In this document: piece by piece, positions 764 to 33,521 of the stretch
Layout: each line of letters opens with the position of its first letter
Numbering within the stretch: the stretch's first letter is position 1
The notes under the pieces: generated by a model
Seen by the model: the letters and a program-made list of their open reading frames with translations, nothing else
What the model was told of the DNA's origin: nothing
Database searches by the model: none
From: Branchipolynoe longqiensis
Taxonomy: Eukaryota > Annelida > Polychaeta > Phyllodocida > Polynoidae
Direction: 5' to 3'
Assembly (NCBI GenBank): GCA_030323885.1
Contig: CM059190.1
Coordinates: 84,064,709 to 84,128,708, forward strand
DNA: 64,000 nucleotides
Translations under genes and position numbers: made by a program

Positions 764-1390
764 TCTAGTATAGCATAGCATCGTCTACTATAGCATTGTG
801 GTCTAGTATAGCATAATATGGACTAATATAGCCTAGTATGGTCTAGTATTGCACAGTATGGTTTAGTATCGCATATTAGTATAGCATAGTCTAGTGTAGC
901 ATAGTATGGTTTAGTATAGCATAGTATGGTCTAGTATGGCATAGTGAGGTCTAGTATAGAATAGTACAGTCTAGTATAGCATGATATGGACTAATATAGC
1001 CTAGTATGGTCTAGTATTGCACAGTACGGTTTAGTATCACATATTAGTATAGCATAGTCTAGTGTAGCATAGTATGGTTTAGTATTGCATAGTATGATCT
1101 AGTATGGCATAGTGAGGTCTAGTATAGAATAGTATAGTCTAGTATAGCATGACATAGTATAGTATAGCAAAGTATGGTTTAGTATAGCATAGTATGGTTT
1201 GGTATAGCATAGTGAGGTCTAGTATAGCATACCATAGTCTAGTGTAGCATTGTATTATCTAGTATATTATAGTACTGCCTAGTATAGCATAGTATGGTCT
1301 AGTATTGCACAGTGAGGTCTAGTATAGCATAGTATTGCCAAGTATAGCATAGTATTGTCTAGTAAAGCATGGTATGGTCTAGTATGAGCT
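764..1390. repeat. Minisatellite of AGTATAGCATAGTATGGTCT units with 168-bp higher-order period
   Basis: The array is built of diverged units of about 20-25 bp (consensus like CTAGTATAGCATAGTATGGT). A superimposed higher-order repeat is visible: the block starting 'GACTAATATAGCCTAGTATG' at 821 recurs at 989, and 'CATATTAGTATAGCATAGTC' at 872 recurs at 1040. Both are offset by exactly 168 bp. There is no ORF. Confidence 0.9.
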
Positions 1391-1391
1391 T

Positions 1392-1476
1392 CACGTCTGT
1401 ATTAAATATTATAGACCCCCAATAGCCGATGTTTACTTTTTGTGCTGGGGTGTCATTAAAGAAACAAACAAACAAA
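1392..1476 (+). mobile_element. SINE 3' tail, mollusc-type module
   Basis: 'CCAATAGCCGATGTTTA' is followed by 'GTGCTGGGGTGTCATTAAAG' and an (AAAC)n tail. The same module appears in opposite orientation, and longer, at 59166-59432. From memory this 3' module is common in mollusc SINEs. The tRNA-like head is missing, so the copy is 5'-truncated. Confidence 0.65.
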
Positions 1477-2300
1477 TATTAAATAGCATGAACAAACTAA
1501 TTCTGCCGATTCTATATTCTGTGACCTCACGTGCCCTATGATCTAGATGGGGACCTTTGAACCCGCCCCCCCCCCCACATCATTCCAATTCGATTCTGTG
1601 ATAGACTTTATAACGACGGAATAAAATCTGCCGAAAACTACATGATGTTGGCATCACTTTCCGCAGGCAGAGTTGTGGGCAATTTAAACAAATTAAAACT
1701 GATCGGGTTACAGGTAAGGCCAAATAAAACAAACAAAATTGGTTATCGTCCCCGCCCATGTCTGAAAAATCGCCCACCGGTGATTTAATTTTGTTATAAT
1801 TATTTCTTCAAACTGCTCAAAAATATGTTGGGTCAGCATCAACTTCCAGATGTTATAAGTAAATATGTATGGATAGCGGTTAACACCGTTAAACCATTAC
1901 ATGTGCATGCACTGAAATTGATGTTTTTGTAACTCCATTGAAATCATGTAAAAATACTGAAAATAATTAAAAAATACAAATAAAAACAACCTGCTCGACC
2001 CTGATTTGTGTGATGAAAAGGATGATCACCAACATAGACAAAATATTTGGACTATTATGGTTAGAATTATCGCAAGGCCTTAAGGTAGAGATTACTGTGG
2101 GTAGTTAGTTCAATGTGATTACAATTGCGAGTGTATGTAGAGCATACCTTGAGTGGATTGATTGAATTATGAATACATGTACTTGCAACTGAAGTCTGTT
2201 TTCTTCCTCGAACGCCTGTTCTCATATAATACATCTGCGACAATACAGAAGCGATCAACTCACCACCTAACTCTACCAGCATATATAGTAAATATAATAT
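1477..2300. other. Unannotated AT-rich stretch
   Basis: No supportable gene, RNA or repeat was recognised. A C11 run lies near 1566. Short ORFs here lack codon bias, motifs or splice context. Confidence 0.5.
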
Positions 2301-8596: not shown

Positions 8597-8690
8597 GCAG
8601 TCCGGAGAACCAGCGAGGGAATAAACAAGGGAAGCTGTGTTAATGGGACACCCCGACAGAGGGCAGCACCGCGATGTCACCTGGGCCATA
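8597..8690 (-). repeat. Duplicated acceptor region of the CNBD2-like exon, copy 1
   Basis: On the minus strand, 'CAGGTGACATCGCGGTGCTG' near 8681 copies the true exon start 'CAGGTGACGTCGAGGTGCTG' near 8592. A second copy of the whole 90-bp block lies at 9121-9232. Each copy contains a decoy AG/G acceptor context. Confidence 0.75.
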
Positions 8691-15625: not shown

Positions 15626-16090
15626 GTAGTCTGCACTGACCTCTCAGGCAAGTAACCACATAGACAGGTAGGCATGGGTAGTGTGGTGATATCAGGGAGC
15701 CTAGGTGGGGTAATGGTTAGCACACTGGGCCGGAATGCAAAGAGATGTGGGTTCAAGTCCCACTCTAGGCGTAATATTTCCCATTTTCATCACCCCTATG
15801 ACACTGGTTGCCGTGACCATGATCCTATACATGCTATGCGCTGTATGGTTGTTGAACCTGCCCTGTGTATGTATGTGTATTTATGTAATTGTAAGCATTA
15901 AAAGACTTACAATTCCAGGGGGATGAGTGTAGTGGTCTACACTGACCTCTCAGGCAAGTAACCACATATACAGGTAGGCATGGGTAGTGTGGTGATATCA
16001 GGGAGCCTAGGTGGTGTAATGGTTAGCACACTGGCCCGGAATGCAAAGAGATGTGGGTTCGAGTCCCACTCTAATGGCAATATTTCCATC
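15626..16090 (+). mobile_element. Direct pair of tRNA(Gln)-like SINEs, type F
   Basis: Two copies about 300 bp apart both run from 'GACCTCTCAGGCAAGTAACC' through 'GGTAGTGTGGTGATATCAGG' into a tRNA-like block: A box GGTGTAATGGTTAGCACA and B box GTGGGTTCGAGTCCC. The A box resembles tRNA-Gln. The first copy continues to 'GTAAGCATTAAAAGACTTAC'. The second breaks off at a recombinase fragment. An inverted diverged relative lies at 39031-39145. Confidence 0.75.
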
Positions 16091-18950: not shown

Positions 18951-19077
18951 CTACTTGAGCAATTCCTTGACCTCATTATTCTCCTCCTCAGGGGGTAATT
19001 TGACCTCCTCAAAGGGTCCGAACTTGGCGTACTGGTTGACGTGTTGCGTCGGGTCTGAGAGCACTTTCACCTCACCT
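18951..19077 (-). CDS. CNBD2-like exon, middle of second cyclic-nucleotide-binding domain
   Basis: The acceptor CTACTTTCAG ends at 19078 and the exon starts with one base that completes the serine codon left open by the exon ending at 21186. This gives ...ILS-G-EVKVLSD, a normal CNB-domain beta hairpin. The peptide then runs QHVNQYAKFGPFEEVKLPP, EEENNEVKELLK and reaches TAG at 18953-18951. An alternative donor, CAA|GTAGGT at 18955/18954, would let the transcript continue. I favour splicing, because the CNB domain would otherwise be cut in half and its expected remainder is seen at 8590. Phase also requires at least one unidentified exon in between. Confidence 0.75.
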
Positions 19078-19378
19078 CTGAAAGTAGGTCAAAGCATAAG
19101 TAGGGGCCTACGTCTGCGTCTGTTAAATTAGTACAATGTCTGTTAAAGTAGGTCAGTGTCTGCTAAGCTAGGTTAGTATACCATAAACTAGGTCGGCGCT
19201 TTGTTTAATAGACCAGTGTCTGTTAAACTAGGTTAGTGTGCTAAATGTTGGTCAGTACTCCTTTAAATAGGTCAGTGCCTGTTAAACTCGATTCGTATCA
19301 GTGCCTGTTGAACTAGATCAGTAGACACCGGGGTTTACATTGAGAGAAGGCCACGAGTGTGAACTGTTTAGAGATAAC

Positions 19379-19660
19379 CACATTGTCCATGTTAGAGTAA
19401 CATGTGTTCATGTTGAGTAACATGTGTTCATGTTAGAGTAACATGTGTTCATGTTCGAGTAACATGTGTTCATGTTAGAGTAATATGTGTCCATGTTAGA
19501 GTATCATGTGTTCATGTTAGAGTAACATGTATTCATGTTAGAGCAACATGTGTTCATGCTAGAGTAACATGTGTTCATTTTAGAGTAACATGTGTTCATG
19601 CTTGAGTAACATGTGTTCATCTTAGAGTAACATGTGTTCATCTTAGAGTAACATGTGTAA
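19379..19660. repeat. 21-bp minisatellite in a CNBD2-like intron
   Basis: About 13 units of GTTAGAGTAACATGTGTTCAT with point variants. Each unit contains the near-palindrome AACATGTGTT. It lies in the same intron as the exon-derived array at 19943-21190. Confidence 0.95.
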
Positions 19661-19942
19661 TTCTCTCAAGAGCTAGTCGGCCTGCCATACTTCACCACTG
19701 ACACTTGCCGCCACCTATCATTTCATGTCAGAATTCTTAATATCTTAACTTGCGGCCACCACGTAGTGTCAAATTCTTCTTCCAACTCGGACATATGCTT
19801 GCCTCCGGGTTCTCTGTCCCTCACCGCCTGGACACAAACCTGCGAGGTCAGGCTCATCCACAATCTGATGCCACCCACCCCATAACTAACGTCAAAGGAA
19901 GAAGCTGGTAGGGCTGAGTGCCCGATTAACGACATACACAGG

Positions 19943-21190
19943 TATGAAATAGATCTCAACTCCCCTAATATTGCTCAGTGCCACCTAATGTTCATGCAGA
20001 AAGTCTACTGTATACAACTGTATGGAATAGATTTCAACTCCCTTAATATCACCCAATGCTAAGCGAATGATTACCCACAAAGTCTAGTGCATACCACAGT
20101 ACAAAATAGATCTCAATTCCCCATATATCGCTCAGAGATGGCTAAAGTTCACCCACAAAGTCTAATGCATACAGGATGATATTGATCTCAACTGCCCTAA
20201 TATCACCCAATTCTAGAGAAGGTTCACCCACAAATTCTACTAGATACAATAGTATAAAATAAATCTCAACTCCCCTAATTTCACCCAATTCTAGTGATGT
20301 TTCGCCCACATACACACGAGTATGAAATATATCACAACTCCCCTAATATCGCTCAGTGCCAGCTAAGGTTTGCCCACAAAGTAGTATGAAGTAGATGCCT
20401 GTTACCAGGTCACCCTGTCAGACCAGCATGTATTCAACTCCCTTAATATCACCCAATGCTAGAGTATGTTCACCCACAAAGCTTACTGCACACAGTGGTA
20501 TGGAATAAATCTCAACTCCCCTAATATCACCCAATGCTAGAGAAGATTCACCCACAAAATCTGATACATACAGCAGTATGAAATAGATCTTAACTCCCTT
20601 AATATCGCTAAGTCCCAGGTATGGTTCGCCCACAAAGTGGTCTATGTACGATAGTGTGAATTAGATGCCTACTACCAGGTCGCCCTCTCAGGCCAGTATG
20701 TATTCAACTCCCCTACTATCACCCGATTCTAGACAAGGTTCACCCATGAAGTCTACTACATACAGCTGTATGAAATAGATCTCAACTCCCCTAATATCAC
20801 CCAATTCTAGACAAGGTTCACCCACAAAGTCTACTACATACAGCGGTATGAAATAGATCTTAACTCCATTAATATCGCTAAGTCCCAGCTATGGTTTGCC
20901 CACAAAGTGGTTTATGTACGATAGTATGAATTAGATGCCTACTACCAGGTCGCCCTGTCAGACCAGTATGTATTCAATTCCCCTATCACCCAAGGCTAGA
21001 GAAGGTTCACCCACAAAATCGCTACATACAGTGGTATGAAATAGATCTCAACTCCCCTAATATCACCCGATTCTAGACAAGGTTCACCCACAAAGTCTAC
21101 TACATACAGCGGTATGAAATAGATCTTAACTCCCCTGATATCGCTCAGTTCCAGCTAAGGTTCGCCCACAAAGTGGTTTACGTACGATAA
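19943..21190 (-). repeat. Tandem array derived from a CNBD2-like exon-intron junction
   Basis: About 15 monomers of roughly 64-115 bp lie directly downstream (minus strand) of the 21495-21186 exon. On the minus strand monomers read ATCTATTTCATACC, then a GTATGTA donor-like site, then TTTGTGGGTGAACC and GGTGATATTAGGGGAGTTGA. The real exon end and intron start read ATCTACTTCATATTATC|GTACGTAAAC and then TTTGTGGGCGAACC, so the monomers are copies of the junction. Three monomers (20386, 20655, 20925) also include about 50 nt more of the exon. These recur every 266-270 bp up to the genuine exon at 21191, giving a three-unit higher-order repeat. The open reading frame over 20418-20633 is translated repeat, not a separate gene. 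Confidence 0.9.
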
Positions 21191-21495
21191 TATGAAGTAG
21201 ATGCCTGCTACCGGGTCGCCCTGTCGGACCAGCATGTTTTCATAGGGCACTGACTCCTTGACCAGCGCCATGGCCAGCTGCTTCTTGTACTTGGGTGGCC
21301 AGTTGTGGAAGTAAGGGCTGGTTGCAATAAAGTTTGACTTGTCCTCAAACTCCTTCTGCAAGACGGACTTGACGGAGCGGTTGTAGAGCTCGCGATCCAC
21401 GACGATGAGGTCAGCGTTGTCGTCACTAATAATGGACGCCGTCCGGATACAGTCGTCACTGAACAGGGCAACCTCCCCGAACGTGGCGCCAGCCC
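21186..21495 (-). CDS. CNBD2-like exon spanning the end of one and start of a second cyclic-nucleotide-binding domain
   Basis: 310-nt internal exon. The acceptor is CCACACAG|G at 21496/21495 and the donor C|GTACGT at 21186/21185. Residues GAGATFGEVALFSDD and TASIISDDNADLIVVDRE form the phosphate-binding-cassette region and last strands of a CNB domain. RSVKSVLQKEFEDKSNFI is its C helix, and WPPKYKKQLAMALVKE then LVRQGDPVAGIYFILS begin the next CNB domain. In the cassette position the sequence has FGEVAL and later R-T-A (CIRTASI), consistent with the conserved E and R, so binding could be retained. Its phase fits the 19077 exon exactly. The CNBD2 assignment is by recognition of tandem domains; PKA regulatory subunits and Epac are less likely. 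Upstream exons (above 21.5 kb) were not found. Confidence 0.85.
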
Positions 21496-21539
21496 CTGTG
21501 TGGTGGCAAACAGTGGAACTAATCAGTGACACAATCGGA

Positions 21540-21715
21540 ATGATACACGCCGTCCAGATACAGTTATTTCTGAACAGGGCAACCTCCCCAAACGTGGCGC
21601 CAGTCCCTGCACAGCGGCAAACAGGGGAACTAATCAGTGATATAATCAGCCATCAAGGAACAGGGCAACCCTCCCGAATGTGGGGCTAATTCTTGTGTGG
21701 TGGCAAACAGAGTAG
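21540..21715 (-). repeat. Duplicated acceptor side of the CNBD2-like exon
   Basis: Minus-strand copies of the acceptor and exon start lie upstream of the true exon: 'CAGGGACTGGCGCCACGTTT' then GGGGAGGTTGCCCTGTTCAG at about 21610-21570, and a shorter one at about 21715-21660 with CCACATTCGGGAGGGTTGCC. The true start reads GGGCTGGCGCCACGTTCGGG. The copies carry substitutions that change key residues, so they are not alternative functional exons on their face. Confidence 0.8.
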
Positions 21716-21771
21716 GTAATGAGTGAGACTTTCGGAATTGTTCTCTATCATTTATAATTAGTCAGGCAGTT

Positions 21772-29868: not shown

Positions 29869-32800
29869 TCATTTCCCATTGTGATGTAAATAATGTATGT
29901 GGTCGCCTTCACACAAATCCCTGTGTTTCTGACCGGCATGTTTATCAAAGTATCTTTTCTGATTATTCTGTACTTTAGTTAATTCAACCTTCTTAGGTAA
30001 TTGACACTTTGGCTGGAGCTGTGTCTTTAGCACAGGTAATTTGCTCCTCAACCTGCGCGACATAAGTAGTTGTGCCGGAGAAGCACCTATGCCCTGTAAT
30101 GTCGTATTTCTGTAATTTAATAAAGCAATGTGCGGATCATTACCATCTAAAGTGGCCTTTTTTATCAATCGTTTAATAGTTTGAACATATCGTTCCGCCT
30201 GTCCATTGCTTTGAGGGAACAGCGGACTCGAAAAACTGGTCTGAAAGTCATATTCTTTAGCAAATTGCAGGTATTCAGCGCTACTAAATTGCGGCCCATT
30301 GTCAGACACCACAATCTTTGGGATCCCGTACCTGCAAAATGTTTGTTTCAATGCATGTATGATAGCTTTACTAGTTGTGGTTTCTAGTTCAATTACCTCA
30401 GGGAATTTAGAGTAGTAATCTACTATTACAATAAAATTCCTATGTTCTAACATAAACAAATCCACTCCTACTTTATGATAAGGAATACATGGTATGTGAT
30501 GACTTTCTAGTGGTTCTGAATGTTGTGCATTTCTGTATTCCTGACAAATTTGGCACCGCGACACAATGTCTTCTAATTGACTCCCTAAACCGAACCAAAA
30601 TACCGTGTCCCGAGCTAATTGTTTACATCGGACGACACCTAAGTGGGACTCATGTAATTTGTGTAGCATGTCAGGCTGTAATGAACGCGGTATAACAATT
30701 CGATTACCCTTTAATACGAGGTCGTCATGGATTGTAATTTCACTACGGTATGTAAAAAACGGTTTGACTTCGCGGCTGAGATTACGCTGACTATTGGGCA
30801 AACCGTGCAGTGCCAGGTAACTGATCTTCTGCAACGTATCGTCTTTCTTCACCTCCTGCCTTAGTTGTGACATACTACCATCTCCCAATTGAATCTCTGC
30901 CACCGTGAAGTCATCATCGAACAAGTTTTCAGGTGAAGTTAAGGTGGTGTGTGCCCTGGACAGCGCGTCTGCAAAGTACATCAGCGTGCCTTTAATGTGT
31001 ATGACTTTGATATTATAGTTCTGGAGCCTCATCCTCATACGCTGCATCCTCGAAGACAACGTATGGATGGACTTATTCATAATTGCTACCAGCGGTTTAT
31101 GGTCTGTTTGGACTGTCACCTCTTTGCCGAATATATACTCATGGAATTTTGTACATCCGAAACATATGGCTAGTAATTCTTTTTCGATTACAGCATAATT
31201 AGATTGTGTGCTATTTAAAGCCTTTGACGCCATGGCCACAGGTTTATCGTTTTGAAACAAAGTGGCACCTAGACCTGATTTAGATGCATCAACTTGCAAA
31301 ACTATATCTGCATTCACATCAAAATATTTTAATACTGGGGCCTTGGTTAGTAACTGTTTGAGTTTTTCAAAAGCATCTATTTGTTCTTGTTGCCAGTGCC
31401 AAGCCACATCTTTGGTGAGAACAGTATGCAATGGTTTGGCAATGTCCGCCATGTTAGGGATGAATTTATTTACGTAACCCACCATCCCTAAGAACCGCTG
31501 TATAGCCTTTTTATCCCTGGACGCTGGCATGTCAATTATAGCTTGTACTCTTTCCTTACTAGGTGACACCCCTTCAGATGTCAGTACATGACCTACATAG
31601 TTGACTTGAGACTTACATATCTTAGATTTCTTGGGATTAAGGGTAAGGTTAAATTTCCTGGCTCTGTCTAACACTGCCCGAAGTCGACTATTATGTTCTT
31701 GCACAGTGTGACCATATACTAGAATGTCATCTGTAATTACATTTACTCCCTTCAAATCTCCTAGTATGTTGTTCATTTCCTCAATGAAAATATCACCAGC
31801 CGTTTTTATGCCAAAAGGTAATCTAGTAAAACGATATCTACCCCATGGGCTATTGAATGTGCACAGGTTAGAACTCTCTCTATCTAAATGTATCTGCCAG
31901 TAGCCGCTGTTCGCGTCAAGCACTGAAAAATATTGTGCTCCATGCGTACTAGCAACAACCTCTTCGATAGTGCGTGTCGGATAGGGGCCTCTTAAGATAG
32001 CTTTATTTAATTTAGTCGGATCTAGGCATATTCTAATTTTTCCTGGTTTCCTCACAATGGTGATCGAGCTAACCCATGGAGTTGGTTCTGTTTGTTTCAT
32101 TATAACACCCAATCTTAACATTCTGTCTAATTCTTTACGTACCTCTGAACTAATAGCATGTGGAATGCGTCTGGGAGCATCAATGACAGGGGAAACATTT
32201 TTATCTACATGAATATGCGCATTAACTTCTATTTTGCCAATGCCTTTGAATACATCAGTGTATATATTTACCAAGTTTGTAGCTTTCTCCCCTTGATCTG
32301 AGACATCTGATACACAGTCCACCCTTCTGATTAGGTTTAGTGCAACACAAACACTCATCCCAAGAAGAGGGTTTCCCTTGTCTGTTACTTGAAATTTGAT
32401 CCTTTGTCCACGTACGGTGATCATCGTCTCTCCCACTGGCTGTATTCGTTGTCCTGTATACGTGACGAGATTGCATGTAGGCGGAGATAGGGTCAATCCC
32501 CCTATCTTGTCATACAATTCCCTTGTGATTATATTTGCCTGTGACCCTGTGTCCAGTTTAAATTCCATCATCACGTCGTTAATTTGTACTGTCGTGTACC
32601 AAAGCCTGCTGGTCTGTTCGCTGTCACTGTTTAACGCACTGACGAACAGGTCGTGCATGTTGTTGTCGTCGTATCCATCCTCCCATTCGTCTACATCGCA
32701 TCGTCGATCCATAGTAACTTCATTCACCGCGGTGTTTCTTTGTTCACGTCTCCTGCACATTTTGATGAAGTGTCCCGTCTTCCCGCATCCGGAGCACTGT

Positions 32801-33108
32801 TTATCTCGGGCTGGACAACGATTCTGGTAATGTTGATATCCACAATTTCCGCACTGAGACGTGAATGTATTTGTACGGCGCGCCTGCATCTGTGACCTCC
32901 GTTTCCATGGTTCCGGTCGTCGGTGTGACGTCACATCACTGTCACGTTTTGAAATTGCGTCGACGGTCTCCGTTGCTATATAAGATGAACTGTCACTCAC
33001 TAATTCCGATTTGTGTTCACTCAAACGACACAAATTGACACACATCTCCAGGGATAAATTACTTGTTTGCAATAGACGATCCCGTAAAGTTTTACATTTT
33101 TCCCGCAT
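29869..33108 (-). CDS. Gypsy polyprotein: nucleocapsid, protease, RT, RNase H, integrase
   Basis: 1079 codons, uninterrupted. Two zinc knuckles are at about residues 86-98 (C-x2-C-x3-H-x4-C) and 105-118 (C-x2-C-x4-H-x4-C). The protease active site DTGS is at 186. The RT core has LDANSGYWQIHL at about 397 and the catalytic pair in VITDDILVYG near 460. The RNase H aspartate is in LQVDASKSGLG near 607, with FADALSRA closing the domain at about 712. The integrase has an HHCC-type finger (H819, H822, C852, C855) and catalytic D883, D936 (VSDNGPQF) and E972 (GQAERY). There is no chromodomain. The N-terminal 85 residues look like the end of the capsid region, so the ATG at 33108 is probably not a natural start and the frame is the downstream half of a gag-pol reading. 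Confidence 0.95.
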   Translation of the reverse strand: MREKCKTLRDRLLQTSNLSLEMCVNLCRLSEHKSELVSDSSSYIATETVDAISKRDSDVTSHRRPEPWKRRSQMQARRTNTFTSQCGNCGYQHYQNRCPARDKQCSGCGKTGHFIKMCRRREQRNTAVNEVTMDRRCDVDEWEDGYDDNNMHDLFVSALNSDSEQTSRLWYTTVQINDVMMEFKLDTGSQANIITRELYDKIGGLTLSPPTCNLVTYTGQRIQPVGETMITVRGQRIKFQVTDKGNPLLGMSVCVALNLIRRVDCVSDVSDQGEKATNLVNIYTDVFKGIGKIEVNAHIHVDKNVSPVIDAPRRIPHAISSEVRKELDRMLRLGVIMKQTEPTPWVSSITIVRKPGKIRICLDPTKLNKAILRGPYPTRTIEEVVASTHGAQYFSVLDANSGYWQIHLDRESSNLCTFNSPWGRYRFTRLPFGIKTAGDIFIEEMNNILGDLKGVNVITDDILVYGHTVQEHNSRLRAVLDRARKFNLTLNPKKSKICKSQVNYVGHVLTSEGVSPSKERVQAIIDMPASRDKKAIQRFLGMVGYVNKFIPNMADIAKPLHTVLTKDVAWHWQQEQIDAFEKLKQLLTKAPVLKYFDVNADIVLQVDASKSGLGATLFQNDKPVAMASKALNSTQSNYAVIEKELLAICFGCTKFHEYIFGKEVTVQTDHKPLVAIMNKSIHTLSSRMQRMRMRLQNYNIKVIHIKGTLMYFADALSRAHTTLTSPENLFDDDFTVAEIQLGDGSMSQLRQEVKKDDTLQKISYLALHGLPNSQRNLSREVKPFFTYRSEITIHDDLVLKGNRIVIPRSLQPDMLHKLHESHLGVVRCKQLARDTVFWFGLGSQLEDIVSRCQICQEYRNAQHSEPLESHHIPCIPYHKVGVDLFMLEHRNFIVIVDYYSKFPEVIELETTTSKAIIHALKQTFCRYGIPKIVVSDNGPQFSSAEYLQFAKEYDFQTSFSSPLFPQSNGQAERYVQTIKRLIKKATLDGNDPHIALLNYRNTTLQGIGASPAQLLMSRRLRSKLPVLKTQLQPKCQLPKKVELTKVQNNQKRYFDKHAGQKHRDLCEGDHIHYLHHNGK

Positions 33109-33521
33109 ACTATCCGGTCACATAACAGTGATTCTTCAAATGATCCGTACTGGCAATATGACACACGGTTTCGCAGATTTCTCAGATATGTGTCCATCGA
33201 TTCCGTCGTTTGGTTCAACGTATTAAATTGATACCTGACTATAGTAATGTTGGTTTTACCTTCGCAATAAACTTTGAACTGTTCTATCAGTACCGTAATC
33301 TTGTCTTTGTTTTCCTCTGCGATGTCGAATGTTCTATGGATCTTTTGAGCCTCCGTTCCTGCTACGTGAAGGAATACGCAACACTGAACCCGCTCAGACT
33401 TTGCTGCTATTCCTGCTGCCACCGTGTAAATCCTATATGAGTCAATCCACTGTGTCCAGTTCAGGTTAATGTTACCTTCCAAGTTTAACGGCAGTGGGGG
33501 TTTTAGTCCTGAAAGTGCCAT
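33021..33521 (-). CDS. Gypsy gag, N-terminal (matrix/capsid) part
   Basis: Begins MALSGLKPPLPLNLEG, 31 bp inside the 5' LTR/PBS, with WTQWIDSYRIYTVAAG and a capsid-like VRYQFNTLNQ region, reaching LLCDRIVCG before going out of frame with the homologous continuation. The pol-containing frame overlaps its last ~90 bp in another phase. Because the switch falls inside the capsid-like region rather than at a domain boundary, a disabling one-base indel is more likely than programmed frameshifting. Confidence 0.85.
   Translation of the reverse strand: MALSGLKPPLPLNLEGNINLNWTQWIDSYRIYTVAAGIAAKSERVQCCVFLHVAGTEAQKIHRTFDIAEENKDKITVLIEQFKVYCEGKTNITIVRYQFNTLNQTTESMDTYLRNLRNRVSYCQYGSFEESLLCDRIVCGKNVKLYGIVYCKQVIYPWRCVSICVV

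Follow-up and report, generated by a model that had tools for sequence, protein, structure and literature searches.

Tandem copies of a CNBD2-like exon's own splice junction in an intron of Branchipolynoe longqiensis

In the window, that is, the whole 64 kb stretch of Branchipolynoe longqiensis DNA analysed here (C5:84064709-84128708 of the 1.85 Gb assembly), we found that the first 1.25 kb of the intron after a cyclic nucleotide-binding exon (exon A) is occupied by a tandem array made from the exon's own exon-intron junction. This array is probably a minisatellite that started from a tandem duplication spanning the splice junction and is carried as a tolerated passenger with a small cost to splicing. 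A separate duplication, its unit 111 bp long, affected the acceptor of this exon.

The host exon and its junction-derived array

The joined exons A and B matched Pfam PF00027 (E 9.9e-11), and on the minus strand exon A ends in ATTATC, followed by GTACGT. A predicted Aplysia protein was 65% identical to exon A and runs on over the junction as YFIL-RG-QVEI. The five homologues named by organism were all from molluscs (Aplysia, Elysia, Mytilus, Potamilus, and Ruditapes). The gene is presumably CNBD2-like, a name that comes from the sequence-only reading. The exon A peptide, run once against viral and once against genome contigs, retrieved no relative. The exon-end motif was present in 86 of 113 homologous proteins (fuzzy match, at most two mismatches). 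The predicted frame stopped one residue past the motif in 50 of the 86, as expected from a phase-2 intron starting with GTAA, GTGA, or GTAG, while 5 continued in register as spliced proteins and 31 ran on for at least two residues. Based on the frame ends and the five spliced proteins, the intron position after exon A looks old. The closest homologue (P0001) and the three exon-tail copies in the array (20382-20976) have Tyr where the window's exon and two further homologues (P0002 and P0003) have Asn. Related cyclic nucleotide-binding exons lie at C5 83.78-84.19 Mb (several there), C1 174.8 Mb, and C11 24.86 Mb, and weak matches at C5:84147694 and 84186588 may be upstream exons of the window's gene.

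Table 1. Positions of the exons, arrays, and copies described (window coordinates unless a genome locus is given)
Feature	Position	Strand	Remarks
Exon A, CNBD2-like, cyclic nucleotide-binding domain	21186..21495	minus	phase-1 acceptor, phase-2 donor
Real donor of exon A	21180..21185	minus	GTACGT
Exon B, next after exon A	18955..19077	minus	SGEVKVLSDP...
Junction-derived array	19936..21202	minus	78 bp unit; one partial and 14 full copies besides the real junction
Higher-order copy H1	20977..21242	minus	includes real exon end
Higher-order copy H2	20707..20976	minus	239/266 to H1
Higher-order copy H3	20437..20706	minus	228/266 to H1, 239/270 to H2
Higher-order copy H4	20271..20436	minus	partial; donor lost in 14 nt gap
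Exon-tail copy	20920..20976	minus	57 nt, 50/57 identical, then GTACAT
Exon-tail copy	20650..20706	minus	57 nt, 47/57 identical, then GTACAT
Exon-tail copy	20382..20436	minus	55 nt, 49/55 identical, without donor
Acceptor-side tandem copy 1	21539..21645	minus	period 111; 39 nt intron end and 68 nt exon start
Acceptor-side copy 2	about 21653..21729	minus	more decayed
20 bp array beside exon B acceptor	19118..19288	minus	relation to acceptor doubtful
Kinase exon ...DVWSLGVLLYTMLAG (L022), donor-spanning array	G000:C4:40529841-40533089, array 998-1524		65 bp unit, about 8 copies
Kinase exon (L070), acceptor TTACAG|CTGAAGG repeated upstream	G000:C2:20402239-20405394, array 1015-1527		74 bp unit repeated 6.8 times, 75% matches

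The sequence-only reading had described a tandem array of about 15 junction monomers, and an iterated profile search of the whole 64 kb window (three rounds, cut-off E <= 0.01) bore this out. Between 21202 and 19957 it recovered 15 monomers (E 2.4e-23 to 6.2e-13), every one of them on the minus strand; the rest of the window yielded none. One of the 15 is the real junction itself (21202-21128), which leaves 14 full copies of 62-77 bp, and a partial copy was read by eye at about 19954-19936. In each monomer, about 17 nt from the end of the exon precede the donor place, which is followed by about 60 nt of intronic sequence. Tandem Repeats Finder (TRF) reported the 78 bp unit together with a higher-order unit of 270 bp (3.2 copies, 88% matches). 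The earlier observation that three monomers, 266-270 bp apart, carry about 50 nt more exon was likewise upheld, since alignment placed 55-57 nt of exon in each of them (identities in table 1 derived from alignment scores). The 57 nt exon tail aligned to the array with a score of 43, while the best of 500 shuffles reached 15.5, so the similarity between junction and monomers is real. In a tree of the monomers, the three exon-rich copies grouped with the real junction (support 96/98), and 8 of the 12 inner branches were weak. Pairwise divergence among the monomers ranged from 1% to 39%. When the whole 1248 bp array was searched against the 1.85 Gb genome, with very common words skipped, it matched its own place and no other, which speaks against a dispersed satellite or transposable element as its origin. 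Peptides of the array gave 451 candidates in other species, none of them at E <= 10.

Source and growth of the array, and the acceptor side

Judged from its coding content, exon A is the source of the array, because the exon part of the monomers codes for the conserved end of the cyclic nucleotide-binding domain seen in most of the homologues. The earlier proposal of a tandem duplication anchored on a 5' splice site, giving rise to a series of donor-like sites, was upheld. Read in the frame of the exon, the exon-tail copies contain TGA or TAA, a mark of decay. The best identity of a copy to any other copy dropped with distance from the exon (rho -0.86, 14 copies). Mean identity also fell with distance among the 11 short copies (rho -0.80), with a weaker trend when all 14 were taken (rho -0.38, p 0.17), and the copy that matched the real junction best was a far one, at 20396 (93% over 62 bases). 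Growth was thus likely to have been mainly on the exon side, although the pattern is not clean. Intron gain by tandem genomic duplication, in which a new intron arises from a duplicated exonic AG/GY proto-splice site (PMC2891723), was considered and rejected; the old-looking intron position, with its 50 frame ends and five spliced proteins, stands against it.

The acceptor duplication of exon A was absent from the sequence-only reading. TRF found its 111 bp unit at 21436-21647; the first copy scored 71 (shuffle maximum 20) and the second 43 (shuffle maximum 16). Among 22 aligned codons, the first copy differs from the exon by six nonsynonymous and two synonymous changes, and therefore no protein constraint is visible in it. 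When compared with 937 window points of similar base make-up, both edges of exon A were in the top 1.5% for a nearby copy, which hints at a local bias toward duplication at this exon. Exons B, C, and D, with six edges between them, were unremarkable in the same 937-point test, so that no wider hot spot was seen in the gene. The acceptor junction of exon D has a 22 bp near-copy (20/22) 90 bp upstream (window 8663-8684, minus strand), in the top 9% of the 937 points. It is doubtful that the adjacent 20 bp array ends in the acceptor of exon B: a fit as good was reached in 13 of 1130 windows and by 23 of 2000 shuffles, and the edge score of this acceptor was ordinary.

Other features of the window were recorded as well. 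An open frame of 1082 aa on the minus strand (29872-33117), which we take to be Gypsy-like, has reverse transcriptase, RNase H, and integrase domains. Two tRNA-like matches on the plus strand (15699-15771 and 16008-16073; Rfam gathering cut-offs, 7.0-22.5 kb) are possibly SINE heads. At 19380-19658 a 21 bp unit is repeated 13.4 times (90% matches); on the minus strand many of the units read TACTCTAAC, which resembles a branch-point motif.

Junction repeats in the same genome and in other species

The frequency of such arrays in this genome was estimated from kinase exons. The sample was drawn from 140 matches to PF00069 and consisted of the best 30 and the 40 ranked after them, with two skipped; one locus (L075) was left out because its contig ends there, giving 138 edges of 69 exons. 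An outward copy that includes match sequence was found at 2 of the 138 match edges at a score of at least 22 (five at 18 or more; 95% interval for the two, 0.2-5.1%). The value of 2/138 may be low, because the edge of a match need not be that of an exon, and some of the matches cover the whole domain. In contrast, nearby outward copies were present at 99 of 690 outside points 400-800 bp away (Fisher p 1.3e-6), in a comparison that covers one family, with a few loci overlapping in their flanks and outside points that need not all be intronic. TRF arrays with a period of at least 20 occupied 27356 of 207000 flanking bases (13%) at the 69 kinase loci, as against 51 of 25161 exon-match bases, and they crossed the same two match edges (L022 and L070) and no other of the 138. 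Seven further exons in the fetched loci, with 13 measurable edges, gave scores of 15 or less.

The first of these two exons (L022), which we take to be RSK-like, has its donor place AGG|GTGAGC repeated at eight downstream places, 58-66 bp apart, and seven of the eight keep the real 9-mer. Decay of the copied donors is therefore not general. In this array (family D3), the lowest identities to the reference unit (79% and 82%) belong to the two copies adjoining the exon-side copy, contrary to a clean polarity. Since the array spans a donor in L022 and an acceptor in L070, the junction arrays form a class in this genome, of which the exon A array is one member.

Among the homologues of exon A in other species, 42 acceptor-side and 24 donor-side extensions were shuffle-tested; these 66 extensions do not represent 66 species, because several of the proteins are near-copies of each other. 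One protein (P0019) repeats LGPGAT ahead of the acceptor, and 0 of 2000 shuffles were as good. The read-through frame of another (P0006) reads YFIL-TYVALYCM-YFIL-MYVALYCR, by eye a repeat of 36 nt that spans the same donor; its shuffle value was only 0.023, since in this test the tail is matched against nothing but the exon. A third (P0032) gave 0.0075, which could be chance among 66 tests. In the literature surveyed, which consisted of open-licence papers found by a search not aimed at molluscs, no junction-anchored mollusc array was encountered.

It had been supposed that no standard repeat class behaves in this way, and this supposition does not hold: the 25 bp unit of the ABCA7 VNTR and the 31 bp unit of the CBS VNTR each contain the exon's donor. 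Because these two VNTRs share the build described here, a junction-spanning repeat is a known kind. The human ABCA7 VNTR in intron 18 starts at the exon, and the first two bases of its unit are the exon 18 donor. The donor of the next unit can be used, so that 25 nt are retained and a stop follows; the isoform with the retained unit was unchanged by VNTR length, and skipping of exon 19 alone rose with it (PMC5954066). The exon A array is like it in that the unit holds the exon's donor and the first unit is the real exon end. It differs in its 78 bp unit with about 17 nt of exon and in its 270 bp tier, whereas the ABCA7 repeat is polymorphic in length and is described there without a higher-order unit; moreover, the array here is diverged and is accompanied by acceptor-side copies. 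The human CBS VNTR, c.1444_1467+7(16_21), sits at the boundary of exon 13 and intron 13, and its name implies a unit of 24 exonic and 7 intronic nucleotides in 16-21 copies (PMC2630376, PMC5188458, PMC1395315). Its unit is shorter and its copy number varies, while the array here is known from one assembly. CBS 844ins68, again human, is a single 68 bp duplication of the intron 7/exon 8 junction, for which a strong preference for the distal site, and thus normal mRNA, is reported; the source text says "donor", while the title that it cites (Romano 2002) says 3' splice site (PMC2630376). It parallels the acceptor side of exon A, not the donor array. In human SLC22A1 (OCT1), rs35854239 duplicates a donor, and alternative splicing is reported at 38-52% in a minigene and 0.3-0.6% in liver (PMC8137991); this is one 8 bp duplication without an array, and the likeness lies in a duplicated donor at the junction. 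To this known kind the present array contributes a second tier, duplication at both edges of one exon, and diverged copies, and the kinase sample contributes a frequency within a single genome.

Donor-like sites and competing explanations

It had been stated that most monomers keep GTATGTA or GTACGAT where the real donor sits. In fact, GT is present at the donor place in 13 of the 14 full copies, and GTATGT in five of them; GTACGAT occurs at no donor place. Two of the exon-rich copies have GTACAT, and in the third (20396) the site was removed by a 14 nt gap. Scored with mammalian weights, the real donor of exon A reached -1.19, the 83rd percentile of 1182 GT sites on the gene strand of nearby DNA. 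By the same weights the five full GTATGT copies scored -0.2 to -1.1, with U1 pairing about equal to that of the real donor, and the remaining GT-bearing copies -6.3 to 1.1. Several unrelated GT sites in or beside the array outscored the real donor, among them one just past the array (19878; 2.61). The other three donors taken for the gene in the window scored 2.76, 3.06, and 7.5, so the exon A donor is the weakest of the four. Because an in-frame TAG stands at 21157-21155, 29-31 nt inside the intron, any copied donor, if used, would truncate the protein. GT was kept in 13 of 13 copies in which the site is present, with 18 other columns equally invariant, and donor positions +5 and +6 were conserved at 71%, against a column mean of 85%. 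The +5 G was kept in nine of 14 copies (nine of the 11 short and none of the three exon-rich copies; p 0.027, or p 0.077 when the two GTACAT copies are counted as one event). That the exon-rich copies are without a good donor may hint at pruning, and at no more than that.

We propose that, in a genome rich in local tandem repeats, a duplication with ends straddling the exon edge would keep one working edge at the exon, while the surplus copies would come to lie in the intron. The donor and acceptor that adjoin the exon would still be the ones used by the spliceosome, and the copies would thereby be nearly free to multiply and decay, at the cost of occasional mis-spliced, stop-bearing messages that would be degraded. 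The silence of the copied donors is what we infer here. As 13% of the flanking sequence in the kinase sample is taken up by tandem arrays, neutral growth is the simplest account. It is unlikely that copy number instead tunes the amount of CNBD2-like protein, through transcripts that use copied donors, gain a stop, and are degraded. The near-equal scores of the GTATGT copies and the real donor (by the mammalian weights), together with the weakness of the latter among the gene's four, would suit such a leak, as would the use in ABCA7 of the donor one unit downstream with a resulting stop (PMC5954066). Nevertheless, a good donor is missing from the exon-rich copies, the invariance of GT is matched by that of other columns and +5 and +6 fall below the column mean, and the ABCA7 isoform with the retained unit is reported to be independent of VNTR length.

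The acceptor copy might also act as a coding variant, an acceptor at 21607/21606 adding 37 in-frame codons that repeat the GAGATFGEVALF motif. The 111 bp unit does equal 37 codons, and on the minus strand the frame is open from 21652 into the exon; yet the six nonsynonymous and two synonymous changes give no sign of protein constraint, and the insert would fall within the nucleotide-binding motif, so that we hold this to be very improbable. Unit lengths in multiples of three were rejected as evidence for selection on coding: 78, 111, and 270 fit, while the L022 unit is 65 bp and the acceptor copy is unconstrained. It is still less probable that splice junctions as such are duplication hot spots, for instance via R-loops or paused polymerase. 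Both edges of exon A, the two homologues with repeats at their junctions (P0006 and P0019), and the two kinase exons would agree with it, while nearby copies were rarer at match edges than at flank points; this contrast is not decisive, because selection against exon damage could mask a higher birth rate. Tandem arrays are difficult to assemble, and an artefact of assembly might be suspected for this reason; the divergence among the monomers makes it unlikely, and, with the single genomic place of the whole array, the chance that we are dealing with an artefact or a dispersed satellite is close to nil. Short tandem splice sites (GYNGYN, NAGNAG) offer alternatives 3 nt apart and were rejected as a model, the spacings here being 78 and 111 bp.

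Beyond the passenger reading preferred here, a working ladder of decoys is possible. Extrapolated from 2/138, junction arrays would stand at about one exon edge in seventy, or at thousands of edges; that they act as ladders of competing sites seems to us rather doubtful. If they did, either exon definition would silence all but the exon-adjoining site, or the cell would use the ladder to adjust the share of message that goes to decay, and over-competitive copies would be pruned by mutation, as the loss of a good donor in the three exon-rich copies would suggest. How the spliceosome chooses among identical neighbours is an old question that has usually been studied with built constructs. A natural series is offered here by the 13 decaying donor copies of exon A and by the presumably RSK-like exon, with its real donor and eight copies, seven of them with the same 9-mer. 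Gene models in such repeat-rich genomes may misplace exon ends, and the array shows one route by which introns lengthen from exon sequence.
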